23,411 bases of DNA from a virus. Positions 9,113 to 14,250 of this stretch are shown piece by piece; the first letter of the stretch is position 1; the number at the start of each line of letters is the position of its first letter. Made by a program: the position numbers and the translations under genes. Under the pieces are notes generated by a model. It was given only the letters and a program-made list of their open reading frames with translations. It ran no database searches and had not been told where the DNA came from. The stretch is taken from positions 1 to 23,411 of IMG/VR virus record IMGVR_UViG_3300022937_000148. One strand, given 5' to 3'.

Positions 9113-10807
9113 TTAAATTGTTTCGCCTGCACCAGGTGTCTCTGATGTGTCATCTGCTGGTGGTTCTGGTGATTCTGCATCAGGTTCTGTTGTTCCTAGT
9201 GTATCTAGGTCGGATTGAATGCCACTTGGTGTAACTCCAGCACCACGCATTTCTGCTCCAGCACCCATATTGTTAAATGATTCACCTGAATTTTCTTCAC
9301 GCCATAATGTTTCGTTTTCTGCAAGTTCTTCTTGGCTTAAACCTAAGAAACGTTTAAGTGCAAAACGTTTGCTCATGTAAGGAACTTCCTGTAATGAAGC
9401 AAAAGTGTTAACACGAGCATTATCCATTTCACTTTGTCTGTAACTTGCAAAGTTTTGTGGTGGATTCATTTTTAAATCAAACAAATTGTTGTCAATGTTA
9501 ACGCCTTTGGCATTCATGTACATCTTGAATTCTCTATCAAAGATGTATGCAACAAGATTTTGCAGTCTTGTGCAGTATTTGTTGAATCTTAGTTCCTGAA
9601 TATAAGCAGTGCCTACCCTACCATCGTTATACTGTGCGGCAGAATCGTCTGCGCCGGTAGGTAAGTATGAACTTGGAATACGTAAACCGCGGAATAACTT
9701 GTTGGTAAAATATTTTAGGTCATCAATTTCACCCAAGTTAGTACCGCCAGGTAGTGTTTCTACCTTGGAACCACGTCCTTCCGCTGTTGTTGGGAAGAAA
9801 TAGTCCTCATTAATTGATAGTGGATTAAAACTAGCGTCAATAACATTAGTACCACCGCCTGTTGCACTTGGAATTCTACGTTGATGAATTTCATTTTTGA
9901 TTCTTTCAACAAATCCCATAGCAAGGTGAGTAGGCATGTTACCTACGTCGATGTAAAATACTCTTCTTTCCGGTGCTCTTTGCACACGGTAGATAATAAT
10001 TGCATCTTCAAGTAATTCTTTCTGCTTATAAACCTTGAAAACACTTTCTAATAAACTGTTTCCGAACGGAAAGTTTCTGTCCAGTCCTTCACTTAGTGAA
10101 AGGTGCACAACATGATCCGCTTCAATTGCTGTTTGGTTCATTGTTTTTTCAAATCTTGAACCATACTGCTGTGGATTTGATCCAGCAAATCCTCTTCCAT
10201 ACGCACCACTAGTAGTTGTATAGTCAACTTGGCCTGTTGGTGCACTTGGATTTTTCTGTGTAACGCTTAAATGTTGGAAATTAATATTAATGTCTCTGAT
10301 AACATACTGTTCTGGTTGTTTTCCCTCGCTTTCGTTAACAATAATCTTGTCTACTTTTGCGGGATCTATGTGGAACAGTTTAAATGTTTCAGGATCTCTT
10401 ACAAAAAATGCATCTCCGTATTTGAATACGTTACGCATTACCCTAAAAATTCTTCTGTCGAATTGATTTAAATCAACCCATTGTTGCAAATAACTTTTTA
10501 ATATTTTTGTTTCAGAACTTGTTGCTTGTTGTTTAAAGAAAAGTTGGAATGGTGTTTTGTTTTCTGTGTTTTCTTGTGTACAAAATTCTGCAAGAATATC
10601 CAAAGCGGCATTGACTTCACTGTCAGCGTCCATTGTTTCATACTGACCGTATCTTTCAATTCTATTTGGATGTCCAGAATACACATCAGGTAGATATGAT
10701 GAATAGTTTGTTCTGGCAGGACCTGTTTGCCCTACACCAGATACAGGACTATTTCTTCCCGAAGTGTCTTCTGGTTGGTATTCCTGAAAGTATTTTTTCC
10801 AACTCAT
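9113..10807 (-). CDS. 20: Portal vertex protein gp20
   Basis: 564 residues (T4 gp20: 524). ATG at 10807 has TTTAGGAAAA upstream. The portal dodecamer starts head assembly and is the DNA channel and packaging-motor dock. Diagnostic segments are ERYGQYETMDADSEVNAALD near residue 55, FKYGDAFFVRDP (~130), IDPAKVDKI, RAPERRVFYIDVGNMP (~280), the WGxA-like region EDYFFPTTAEGRGSKVETLP (~335) and GLRIPSSYLP (~375). The last ~60 residues are Pro/Glu/Thr/Gly-rich and probably disordered, which explains part of the added length. It is followed after 13 bases by the gp68-position gene and preceded after 9 bases by the tape-measure-like gene. Confidence 0.95.
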   Translation of the reverse strand: MSWKKYFQEYQPEDTSGRNSPVSGVGQTGPARTNYSSYLPDVYSGHPNRIERYGQYETMDADSEVNAALDILAEFCTQENTENKTPFQLFFKQQATSSETKILKSYLQQWVDLNQFDRRIFRVMRNVFKYGDAFFVRDPETFKLFHIDPAKVDKIIVNESEGKQPEQYVIRDININFQHLSVTQKNPSAPTGQVDYTTTSGAYGRGFAGSNPQQYGSRFEKTMNQTAIEADHVVHLSLSEGLDRNFPFGNSLLESVFKVYKQKELLEDAIIIYRVQRAPERRVFYIDVGNMPTHLAMGFVERIKNEIHQRRIPSATGGGTNVIDASFNPLSINEDYFFPTTAEGRGSKVETLPGGTNLGEIDDLKYFTNKLFRGLRIPSSYLPTGADDSAAQYNDGRVGTAYIQELRFNKYCTRLQNLVAYIFDREFKMYMNAKGVNIDNNLFDLKMNPPQNFASYRQSEMDNARVNTFASLQEVPYMSKRFALKRFLGLSQEELAENETLWREENSGESFNNMGAGAEMRGAGVTPSGIQSDLDTLGTTEPDAESPEPPADDTSETPGAGETI

Positions 10808-10816
10808 TTAATTTTC

Positions 10817-13090
10817 CTAAACATTTTCAACAGCACTTATTACTTGGCGTGTCAAATTATTTTGTTCTGTCATCTTTGCTATAAGCATATTTAACGTATT
10901 ATCTAATTTTACACTACTATCGCGGTTGCTGTCAACCACCTTATTAACCAAATTGGCTGAACCAGACGAGGAAGCACTTGCTTCATTAGCATTGTATTTG
11001 GCCGCTTCTGGTGGACTTAAAACTCTTTCATCTTTACGAATCTTAACCAGTGCGTTTGCAGGTTCGACTACTTTTCCGGTTGCCGCTTTTGTACCAAAGT
11101 GTCTTTGATCAACTCTGTTCATACGATCATCCAATATCTCGTCAAACATGTTGAGCAAGTCTTGGTCGTCTTTGAACCATCTTCCAGAACCAGTTAGGTC
11201 TTCTAGATAATCCAGCATTAAACCTTTTCCTGTAATACTAGCAAATCCTGCGGAAAGCGTGTTCCAAAAACCTCCTTCTTCGTACATTCCGGCACGTTTT
11301 TGTTCTCTAAACCACAAAATTAGTTGATCTCTTTCCTCATCAGAAGCAGTACCTGCCTTAAGTTTTTCTACAATTTCTTTTATTTGTCTGTCAGAGCCGC
11401 CGGTTAATCCCAGATTTCCTGAAAACTCAGTCATCAACCCGTTCTGTTGATTAAATCCTTTATTGATTTGATCAGAAATAGTAGTACCAATTTTGTCTAA
11501 CATTTGTTTTCCATCGGTTTCCCACCAATTTTGCAACCATGTTTTGAAATCTTCCCACATCTGTTTGGCGTCGTTTATTATATTCTCTCTGCCTTCTTTG
11601 TCAAATGGATTGTACTTTTTAATTTTTTCTATAATACCATCAATTGCTTCTACCATCGCAGGAGTATTTTCTCTAATGGTCTTAGCAAATTTTTTCATGG
11701 CGTCGGTAAATGTACCGCTTTTGAATACTTCTTTGAACAAGTTACCCAACGCTTCTCTAACATCCGCAACGGCTTTATTAAAACTAATCATAGCATCAGC
11801 AATAGCATCTGTTTTACCCATTCGGCTTTCCACTTCTTCCATTGAACCGCCAAATCTGTTAACAAATCCCACAATGTCGCTACCAGCCTGACCGTATGGA
11901 TCTCCCATCAATGCCAATGTTCCAAAGTATGAACTGTTTGCATCAGCAAAAGCACGATTAGCATTTGCAAATTGATTCATTGACCCTAATGTCATTTTAT
12001 TAAAGTCATCCAACGAACCGTTAAAGTTTTTAGCCTGGTTAGTCATCATTGCAAACTGCTGATTAAATCCAGGCATCATTGCTGTTAGATTTTGTGCACC
12101 TTCGGTTACAGGTGCTACACCCATCATCATTGCCATTGCGGCTTCTCTACCGCTGTCACCGAATGCCGCTTGCGCCGTGCCAATGATAGATCTCATTCTG
12201 TTGGCTGTTTCGCCATCCATGCCAGAAATAAAGTTTTCAAAGGCCTTGTTCATGTTGGCCTTGTCTATACCTTCTTTAATTTGATCCGCTTGTATACCAG
12301 TTAATTCAGAAAGTCTACGCAATCCTTTTGCATAGTCGTCGCTTTGCTCAATTATTTGTTCTCTAGAAATTCTGTCTCTTCTAAATGCAATCGCATTTTG
12401 ACCAACAAAATCAAAAAATTGTTCGCTTTGCTCCGCATAACTTATTCCAAATCTTTCAAGCATTTCAGCATTTTTATCAAATGCCTGTTCTTGCATTCCT
12501 AGTGCTAGTGTTGCACCTCGTGTTGCAGTTCCCATCATTGCAAGTTGTTCACTGTTTTTTGCTAGTAAACCAGCCATTTGGTTGATGTCAATACCAGCGG
12601 AAGCCGCTTGCGCCGCCAATGTTCCCATCCTGTCACCAAATGCAATACCCGACGACGATAACTGTTGGAATACCTGATAATCTTTGTACAATAATTCTGT
12701 TATAGCATGTAACGCATCACCAAGACCTAAAAAGTTAATTCCACTTTCTTTAATAATTTTAGTAAAGTCGGTAATAGTATTTTGTGTTTGTACTATGTTG
12801 GTGCTTAATACAGTAAGTCCGGAACCGGCTTTTACTAATCCACCTGCAAGACTTGTAACAATGCCTAGTGCTTTACCTAGCAGTGTAAAACTGCCGGTAA
12901 CACCCTTCATGGCTAGTCCTAGAGGATTAAACGAAGTTTTAATAATGTTTTTTGTTGCTTTGCCAAGAATACCGTCTCCGCCCTGATCGGCGTTCCTGTC
13001 AATCGCTTTTAAAATGGCTTCAAGGGTTGCTTGTTCCGCCGCATTTTCCAATACAACGTCTGCATCTCCTATTTGACCTCTTACTGCCAT
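10817..13090 (-). CDS. Tape-measure-like tail protein (757 aa)
   Basis: 757 residues, ATG at 13090 with GGAG about 13 bases upstream. A tape-measure protein sets tail length and lies in the tube lumen. Visible features: a Gly/Ala-rich hydrophobic region at ~45-95 (SLAGGLVKAGSGLTVLSTN) that could cross a membrane during ejection; long helices with Met/Ala/Gln-rich stretches in the middle; helical EAIDGIIEKIKKYN at ~490; and a C-terminal ALVKIRKDERVLSPPEAAKY segment resembling the end of many tape-measure proteins. It stands next to, and divergent from, the gp26-like gene whose frameshift organisation is characteristic of tape-measure chaperones. In T4 the tape measure is gp29 (590 aa); this may be its functional counterpart, although sequence similarity cannot be shown here. 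Confidence 0.7.
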   Translation of the reverse strand: MAVRGQIGDADVVLENAAEQATLEAILKAIDRNADQGGDGILGKATKNIIKTSFNPLGLAMKGVTGSFTLLGKALGIVTSLAGGLVKAGSGLTVLSTNIVQTQNTITDFTKIIKESGINFLGLGDALHAITELLYKDYQVFQQLSSSGIAFGDRMGTLAAQAASAGIDINQMAGLLAKNSEQLAMMGTATRGATLALGMQEQAFDKNAEMLERFGISYAEQSEQFFDFVGQNAIAFRRDRISREQIIEQSDDYAKGLRRLSELTGIQADQIKEGIDKANMNKAFENFISGMDGETANRMRSIIGTAQAAFGDSGREAAMAMMMGVAPVTEGAQNLTAMMPGFNQQFAMMTNQAKNFNGSLDDFNKMTLGSMNQFANANRAFADANSSYFGTLALMGDPYGQAGSDIVGFVNRFGGSMEEVESRMGKTDAIADAMISFNKAVADVREALGNLFKEVFKSGTFTDAMKKFAKTIRENTPAMVEAIDGIIEKIKKYNPFDKEGRENIINDAKQMWEDFKTWLQNWWETDGKQMLDKIGTTISDQINKGFNQQNGLMTEFSGNLGLTGGSDRQIKEIVEKLKAGTASDEERDQLILWFREQKRAGMYEEGGFWNTLSAGFASITGKGLMLDYLEDLTGSGRWFKDDQDLLNMFDEILDDRMNRVDQRHFGTKAATGKVVEPANALVKIRKDERVLSPPEAAKYNANEASASSSGSANLVNKVVDSNRDSSVKLDNTLNMLIAKMTEQNNLTRQVISAVENV

Positions 13091-13117: not shown

Positions 13118-13125
13118 TATAAATA
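13118..13125 (+). promoter_or_regulatory. Consensus late promoter TATAAATA for gp26
   Basis: A perfect T4 late octamer on the plus strand. The predicted start is near 13131, giving a ~40-base leader with AGAGGA before the ATG at 13172. It faces a minus-strand copy at 13151-13158. Confidence 0.75.
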
Positions 13126-13150: not shown

Positions 13151-13158
13151 TATTTATA
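13151..13158 (-). promoter_or_regulatory. Consensus late promoter TATAAATA for the tape-measure gene
   Basis: The plus strand reads TATTTATA, so the minus strand carries a perfect TATAAATA. The predicted start is near 13145, giving a ~55-base leader to the ATG at 13090. The two oppositely directed late transcripts would overlap by about 15 bases at their 5' ends. Confidence 0.7.
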
Positions 13159-13171
13159 GAGGATAACAACC

Positions 13172-14032
13172 ATGGATAATCAAAGCGTTTTAAGCAAATA
13201 CAAACGTCAACCAAAAATTTATCTTGCTTTGCCCAGCAAAGGCAAGTACTATGATGTTAATCCTATGGAAAAAAGCGGTAGTGGTGAACTTCCAATTTAC
13301 AGCATGACAGCACGTGATGAGTTGGAACTAAAGACTCCAGATGCACTCATGAACGGTGAAGCAACCACAAAAGTAATTAAGAGTTGTTGTCCACTAATCG
13401 ATGATCCATGGAAAATGCCTAACATCGACCTAGATGCTGTTCTAATTGCAATTAGAATTGCTACATACGGTGAAAAAATGGAAATGGAAATTCCTATTCC
13501 AGGATTAAAAGAACCCGAAACTGCAACATACTCCATTGATCTAAGACAGATTCTTGATAGCCTAAACAATTTAGTTTGGGAAGAAGAGTTAGTTGTAGGA
13601 GATTTAACATTTACTGTTAAACCAATTAGTTACAAGCAAGGAACTGATTTCTATCAATCAACATACGAACAACAGCGTATTGCTAATATTCTTTCAAATG
13701 AAAAAATTTCAGATGAAGAAAAAATGCAAGCATTTAGAGAAGCCTTTAAAAAACTAAGTCAAACAACATTAGAAATTGTTTGTGCTCACGTTACGGAAAT
13801 TAAAACACCCGAAGGTATTGAAACTAATCCTAAAGCAATTAGAGATTTCTTTGATAACACCGACAAAGAAACGTTTGTTGCTGTTAGTGAATTTGTTGAT
13901 AAAAATCGCAAAGCATGGCAGATTCAATCAAAAACATTTCAAGTAGAACAGGAGTTACAAGACAAAGGTGCTCCGCCAACGGTTGAGGTTCCATTGCTTT
14001 TTGATCAATCAAATTTTTTCGCATCAAGGTAG
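13172..14032 (+). CDS. 26: gp26-like baseplate hub / tail chaperone
   Basis: 286 residues, ATG at 13172 with AGAGGA upstream. The N-terminal YLALPSKGKYYD, then MTARDELELKTPDALMNGEA and IKSCCPLIDDPWKMPNIDLD (~45-90) are the signature of the T4 gp26 family (baseplate hub, PF12322-type). T4 gp26 is 208 residues; this one carries a longer helical C-terminal part. The last residues are read over AAATTTTTTC (14011-14020), which forms two overlapping -1 slippery heptamers in frame, and the -1 frame continues for 76 codons. The full-length product could therefore be 359 residues in a fraction of translation. Position beside the tape-measure gene and two convergent late promoters support a tail-initiation role. 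Confidence 0.85.
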   Translation: MDNQSVLSKYKRQPKIYLALPSKGKYYDVNPMEKSGSGELPIYSMTARDELELKTPDALMNGEATTKVIKSCCPLIDDPWKMPNIDLDAVLIAIRIATYGEKMEMEIPIPGLKEPETATYSIDLRQILDSLNNLVWEEELVVGDLTFTVKPISYKQGTDFYQSTYEQQRIANILSNEKISDEEKMQAFREAFKKLSQTTLEIVCAHVTEIKTPEGIETNPKAIRDFFDNTDKETFVAVSEFVDKNRKAWQIQSKTFQVEQELQDKGAPPTVEVPLLFDQSNFFASR

Positions 14033-14057
14033 CGACTCTCTCGATTTCTGAAATCGA
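14011..14057 (+). promoter_or_regulatory. Programmed -1 frameshift signal in gp26
   Basis: In the gp26 frame the bases read A-AAT-TTT (14011-14017) and T-TTT-TTC (14014-14020), both matching the X-XXY-YYZ rule. The zero-frame stop TAG follows at 14030. The -1 frame is closed by a TGA just upstream (about 14004) and is open from there to 14250. A 7-bp hairpin TCGATTT-CTG-AAATCGA at 14041-14057 lies 20 bases after the slip site, rather far for a classic stimulator. Confidence 0.7.
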
Positions 14058-14250
14058 AGAACTTGTAAAGGATCTAGAAAAACAAACCTCGGTTGTTCTA
14101 GAAGAGTTGGTTACCTTGTGTTGGTACATGAGGGGAGGCCTACAGTTGCGAGATGCTTATGATACCACATACGAAGAACGTCAAAAAATAGGTAAACTGG
14201 TTGAAAGAAATATGGAAACAACCAAAAAAACTGGAATTAATTTTATTTAG
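14020..14250 (+). CDS. -1 frame extension of gp26 (76 codons), gp51-position
   Basis: Reading on from the slip site, the -1 frame gives RIKVATLSISEIEELV and continues through LEELVTLCWYMRGGLQLRDA and a charged helical end to a TAG at 14248-14250. No ATG, GTG or TTG lies in this frame before an internal ATG near residue 37, so independent initiation of the whole segment is unlikely. The pattern of an acidic helix, W-x-x-R-G-G and a Tyr-x-x-Arg helix ending in a Lys-rich tail resembles the C-terminal part of tape-measure chaperones. In T4, gene 51 follows gene 26; the relation to gp51 is suggested by order only. Its stop overlaps the convergent 180-aa gene by four bases. Confidence 0.65.
   Translation, partial: RIKVATLSISEIEELVKDLEKQTSVVLEELVTLCWYMRGGLQLRDAYDTTYEERQKIGKLVERNMETTKKTGINFI

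Follow-up and report, generated by a model that had tools for sequence, protein, structure and literature searches.

The gp26-like gene and its -1 extension

The window (the whole stretch of DNA that we analyzed) is a virus record of 23,411 bases with T4-like character. Near its middle is a gp26-like gene whose reading frame ends shortly after a slippery sequence, with a second open frame beyond it. The features that we will refer to are:

9113-10807: portal gene (PHROG_213)
10817-13090, minus strand: divergent gene for a 757-residue protein, the probable tape measure protein by position
13118-13125, plus strand: T4-type late promoter box 5' of gp26
13172-14032, plus strand: gp26-like gene (286 amino acids), putative short form (TAC-N) of a tail assembly chaperone
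14002-14004, plus strand: TGA that closes the -1 frame just 5' of the slip site
14011-14017, plus strand: a further heptamer, A AAT TTT, which overlaps the next one and would have at best an auxiliary role
14014-14020, plus strand: candidate frameshift site, a conserved slippery heptamer (T TTT TTC)
14020-14250, plus strand: -1 extension (76 codons and a TAG), putative C-terminal domain of the long form (TAC-C)
14030-14032, plus strand: zero-frame TAG, the end of the short form

The zero-frame product of the gp26 gene matches PF12322 (E = 1.8e-6, above the gathering score) and PHROG_150 (E = 5.2e-11). The whole gene holds just two in-frame heptamers of the form XXXYYYZ, namely A AAT TTT and T TTT TTC, and these overlap within the codons AAT TTT TTC at 14012-14020. 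T TTT TTC, read in the gp26 frame, sits ten bases ahead of the zero-frame TAG at 14030. On its 5' side, the -1 frame is closed by the TGA; it then stays open until a TAG at 14248-14250, which overlaps the stop codon of the convergent gene (14247-14249). A -1 slip would add 76 residues and yield a product of 359 residues.

The initial annotation of this DNA had given coordinates for the heptamers, the stop at 14030, the -1 frame, and its end at 14250, and all of these check. It had also claimed that the extension has no ATG, GTG, or TTG before about residue 37, which is not quite correct: the ATG at residue 37 is preceded by TTG codons at residues 30 and 33. None of these is usable as an early start: a protein begun at any of the three would lack the conserved N-terminal region of the extension.

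Two of the window's three T4-type late promoter boxes (TATAAATA) lie in the 81-bp gap that separates gp26 from its divergent neighbor. These two boxes face in opposite directions (13118-13125 on the plus strand and 13151-13158 on the minus strand), and the box on the gp26 side recurs at a similar position in 21 of 46 relatives.

Conservation of the slippery site and the -1 frame

The proposal that gp26 is fused to the extension by a programmed -1 frameshift was originally made from the window alone, and it is borne out by comparison with homologues. A slippery site and an open -1 extension of 57-80 codons are both conserved in 268 of 269 relatives, which form 25 clusters at 50% identity. (The 269 loci are those that reach a stop, and Salmonella phage ViI was left out of the count.) The site takes the form of an in-frame NNT TTT TTY that stands 0-12 codons ahead of the zero-frame stop, and in 255 of the 268 sites the run ends at six T and then C. 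The sole exception has a premature in-frame stop in the middle of the gene.

The relatives with the site include contigs from marine samples, jumbo phages, cyanophages, a pelagiphage, and several other phages. In the nearest relatives (57-100% identity), the -1 frame is open and the block TTTGATCAATCAAATTTTTTCG is retained. Among the jumbo phages, T TTT TTY and the extension are kept in Phosso, Atu_ph07, RaK2, PBECO4, Munch, XacN1, and PA5oct; gp26 proteins of jumbo phages are about 24-33% identical to that of the window. Both features are also found in the cyanophages P-SSM2 and S-PM2, the pelagiphage HTVC008M, Cr30, phiM12, and KVP40. The extension is a conserved protein sequence in its own right, and it is conserved about as well as gp26 itself (for example, 64% versus 65% in one relative).

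The two overlapping heptamers that had been pointed out are both present in the window, but only T TTT TTC/T is universal among the relatives with a site. A AAT TTT was found in just 35 of these 268 relatives (5 of the 25 clusters).

Every single-copy phage that we checked has the slippery site, with the exception of ViI. Its single PF12322 gene is without T TTT TTY, and a -1 stretch that resembles the extension lies after its stop. ViI may use another mechanism.

These patterns are hard to obtain by chance. For the window alone, the probability that this -1 frame would be open over its length is 0.004; the product over the 25 clusters is about 1e-63, which is a rough figure that treats the clusters as independent. 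The codon before the Phe-Phe pair encodes N, S, A, D, H, Y, or R, yet its last base is always T, and the first Phe codon is always TTT. With the residues taken as fixed and the codon usage of each gene allowed for, the probability that all 25 clusters would read NNT TTT here is about 1e-11.7. Elsewhere in the same genes, Phe-Phe pairs are slippery in just 20 of 239 cases. Furthermore, substitutions in the extension within the window's group number 2497, 1310, and 3782 at codon positions 1, 2, and 3, respectively, so that they fall mostly at the third position, as in a sequence that is coding in the -1 frame. On this sequence evidence, we infer that -1 ribosomal frameshifting takes place at gp26, in the window as in its relatives, and we regard this as near certain.

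Stimulatory signals

In 17 of 18 cyanophage-type genes, a Shine-Dalgarno-like motif (GGAGG or a close partial match) lies 9-10 nt upstream, and phiM12 has AGGAG at 17 nt. The glutamate within the cyanophage-type motif is encoded by GAG in 14 of 14 cases, versus 104 of 375 in the background (p = 3e-8). The frameshift site of dnaX is known for a similar spacing between the Shine-Dalgarno sequence and the slip site. Jumbo-type genes are without such a motif, apart from a weak one in 2 of 45 genes, at 20 nt. A sister subgroup of marine jumbo phages instead has a 9-bp stem that begins 6 nt downstream, with four compensated pairs; as the nine stem sequences were picked by eye, this covariation is suggestive only. 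In the window's own group, we searched for a conserved downstream stem and for a Shine-Dalgarno-like stimulator upstream and found neither. These observations suggest that the stimulatory signals differ by lineage, with a Shine-Dalgarno-like element in the cyanophage-type genes and a stem in one group of marine jumbo phages.

Relation to T4 gp26 and gp51

T4 gp26 and gp51 both belong to PF12322. There are two matches to this family in T4 and one each in the cyanophages, HTVC008M, Cr30, phiM12, KVP40, and ViI. Each of 14 jumbo records also has one match, and the record of SCTP-2 has none at threshold. We looked for an arrangement with two PF12322 genes in the jumbo records and in the other phages just named and did not find it; the window itself is a 23-kb fragment.

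The last ~46 residues of gp51 align with the extension of cyanophages and KVP40 from the slip point onward (hhalign, 96.7%, E = 4.6e-10), and gp51 carries the extension in frame. Also, when the extension profile was compared with a 12-kb stretch of T4, gp51 was at the top (E = 1.4e-6), and the next match had E = 0.29. The extension of the jumbo phages matched that of the cyanophages (E = 1e-4, probability 57.6%), but it gave no significant match when its profile was compared directly with gp51 or when it was searched against Pfam and PHROG. The link between the window's extension and gp51 is therefore indirect, and runs through the extensions of cyanophages and KVP40.

The initial annotation had suggested that gene 51 might correspond to the extension. 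This holds for the C-terminal ~46 residues of gp51, but gp51 as a whole is a full-length PF12322 protein. Since gp51 is full-length and has the extension as its C terminus, T4 has one gene for a predicted short form (gp26) and a second, paralogous gene for a predicted long form (gp51). A tree places gp26 and gp51 as sister groups with moderate support (88/75). Among T4-type phages with a separate gp51, the slippery site is kept in gp26 in 0 of 10, and T4 gp26 has evidently lost it. Thus the window and T4 share a protein family and probably the two forms, but T4 makes them from two genes without a frameshift, while the window has one gene with a slippery site. (Gene 51 had been described as following gene 26 in T4. 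In fact, gene 26 lies on the minus strand and reads into gene 25, and gene 51 is divergent from gene 26.)

We lean slightly towards the view that the frameshift is ancestral across the T4-like superfamily, including the jumbo phages, with signals that are specific to each lineage, and that it was replaced once, by duplication, in the T4 branch.

A proposed pair of tail assembly chaperones

We propose that the window's gp26 gene encodes two proteins. The majority of ribosomes would stop at 14030 and release the short form of 286 residues. A minority, on reaching UUU UUC (14015-14020) with a U just before it, would slip back by one base; both Phe-tRNAs would re-pair with UUU UUU, and translation would continue for 76 more residues to give the long form of 359 residues. 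The short and long forms would be a tail assembly chaperone pair. Copies of the short form would coat the tape measure protein during tail building, and the long form, through its extension, would presumably recruit subunits of the tail tube or the hub. Neither form would be required to be present in the virion. We estimate the probability of this explanation as a whole, that is, of a two-protein frameshift gene that acts as a chaperone pair, at roughly 88%.

That gp26 and its extension are chaperones is probable because of the analogy with lambda G/GT and because of what is known of the T4 proteins. The source on which the lambda analogy rests names T4 as the exception (PMC5009743). Both gp26 and gp51 of T4 are listed as chaperones of hub assembly; gp51 is needed for assembly, yet it is absent from the particle (PMC3004832). 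An AlphaFold model of the window's gp26 (pLDDT 86.5) matches T4-like baseplate hub assembly proteins in BFVD, with E values down to 3.5e-19. When we searched the PDB by sequence and by fold with two models of the PF12322 domain (the first poor, the second good), there was no meaningful match.

As to the client of the proposed chaperones, the divergent neighbor of gp26 (10817-13090) is the probable tape measure protein. This assignment rests on gene position: the 757-residue protein is encoded between the portal gene and gp26, as in other jumbo phages. It has only weak family matches (such as PHROG_14121, E = 0.005), and tblastn against 50,697 phage records found no match. A glycine-rich hydrophobic stretch lies near its residues 64-95.

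Alternative explanations

Several database records annotate the extension as a separate small gene, which would be translated from its own start or by termination-reinitiation, and most of the jumbo records in GenBank list it as a hypothetical ORF of its own. Although several relatives do have an ATG at codons 3-7 of the extension (at codon 5 in many cyanophage-type genes), none of 63 representatives has a Shine-Dalgarno-like 4-mer ahead of the early start, and in 37 of the 63, the first 12 codons are without any start. In Phosso and PBECO4, for instance, the gp26 stop is part of an ATGA or TAATG; in the window, the first start is the TTG at residue 30. The frame is already open at the slip site in every relative, and a separate gene would explain neither why T TTT TTC is conserved nor why gp51 has the two parts fused in frame. 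We consider this explanation to be very improbable. We give just as little credence to transcriptional slippage, in which RNA polymerase would add a U at the T run so that a fraction of the mRNAs would be fused. One added U would indeed reach the -1 frame, and the site is a T homopolymer, but six T are short for efficient transcriptional slippage, and nearly all of the sites end there, with a C. Furthermore, the upstream Shine-Dalgarno-like element and the downstream stem act on ribosomes. Finally, a single base would restore one frame, as if a sequencing or assembly indel had split one long gene. This is refuted by the conservation of the frame break: contigs that are independent of each other share it, as do 268 relatives, with published phage genomes among them. 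The chance of such an error is negligible.

If frameshifting does produce the two forms, they might still be structural components of the hub rather than assembly chaperones. The family goes by "baseplate hub" in PHROG and GenBank, the homologue in Pectobacterium phage CBB is annotated as "structural protein," and some genetic studies of T4 placed gp26 in the hub (PMC3004832). In contrast, a short form with a minor long form fits the pattern of the chaperones, and the absence of gp51, the T4 long form, from a particle whose assembly needs it argues against a structural role. We think that a hub component is unlikely, and we prefer the chaperone pair.

Comparison with known systems

Vladimirov, Gautam and Davidson (Virology 2022) reportedly identified these genes in T4-like phages. 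According to papers that cite their study, short-form genes of T4-like phages carry poly-T slippery sites (PMC12846349), and some T4-like phages instead have a short gene together with a longer, fused one (PMC10885494). Our results agree with the study, as it is described in those papers, on the poly-T site and on the combination of a short gene and a fusion gene. As far as can be judged from the same descriptions, the general frameshift system of T4-like phages is already published, so the gain from the window is modest and lies in breadth and in the detail of the stimulators: it adds a marine jumbo lineage and details of the slippery site. For many marine and jumbo T4-like phages, which form a large group, the putative chaperone pair now stands on firm comparative ground, and the family offers a natural experiment, with a frameshift in most lineages versus duplication in the T4 branch.

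As with gpG/gpGT of lambda, there would be a short protein and a minor -1 frameshift fusion that are thought to act on the tape measure. The window differs in its slip site, T TTT TTC, and in that the gene is divergent from the presumed tape measure gene instead of upstream of it. The likeness to lambda is one of gene pattern; the fold of PF12322 is without a PDB match.

A chaperone frameshift in Vandenendeviridae and Andersonviridae (phage Adele, PMC12846349) uses a different motif, GTTTTT, but there too the downstream ORF was misannotated as hypothetical. In the public jumbo records that we examined (L013, L014, L015, L019, and others), the extension is either unannotated or given as a fragment or a stand-alone hypothetical ORF, and in none of them is it joined to gp26. 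Frameshifting at gp26 would explain this small ORF, which has been annotated as a separate hypothetical protein or missed.
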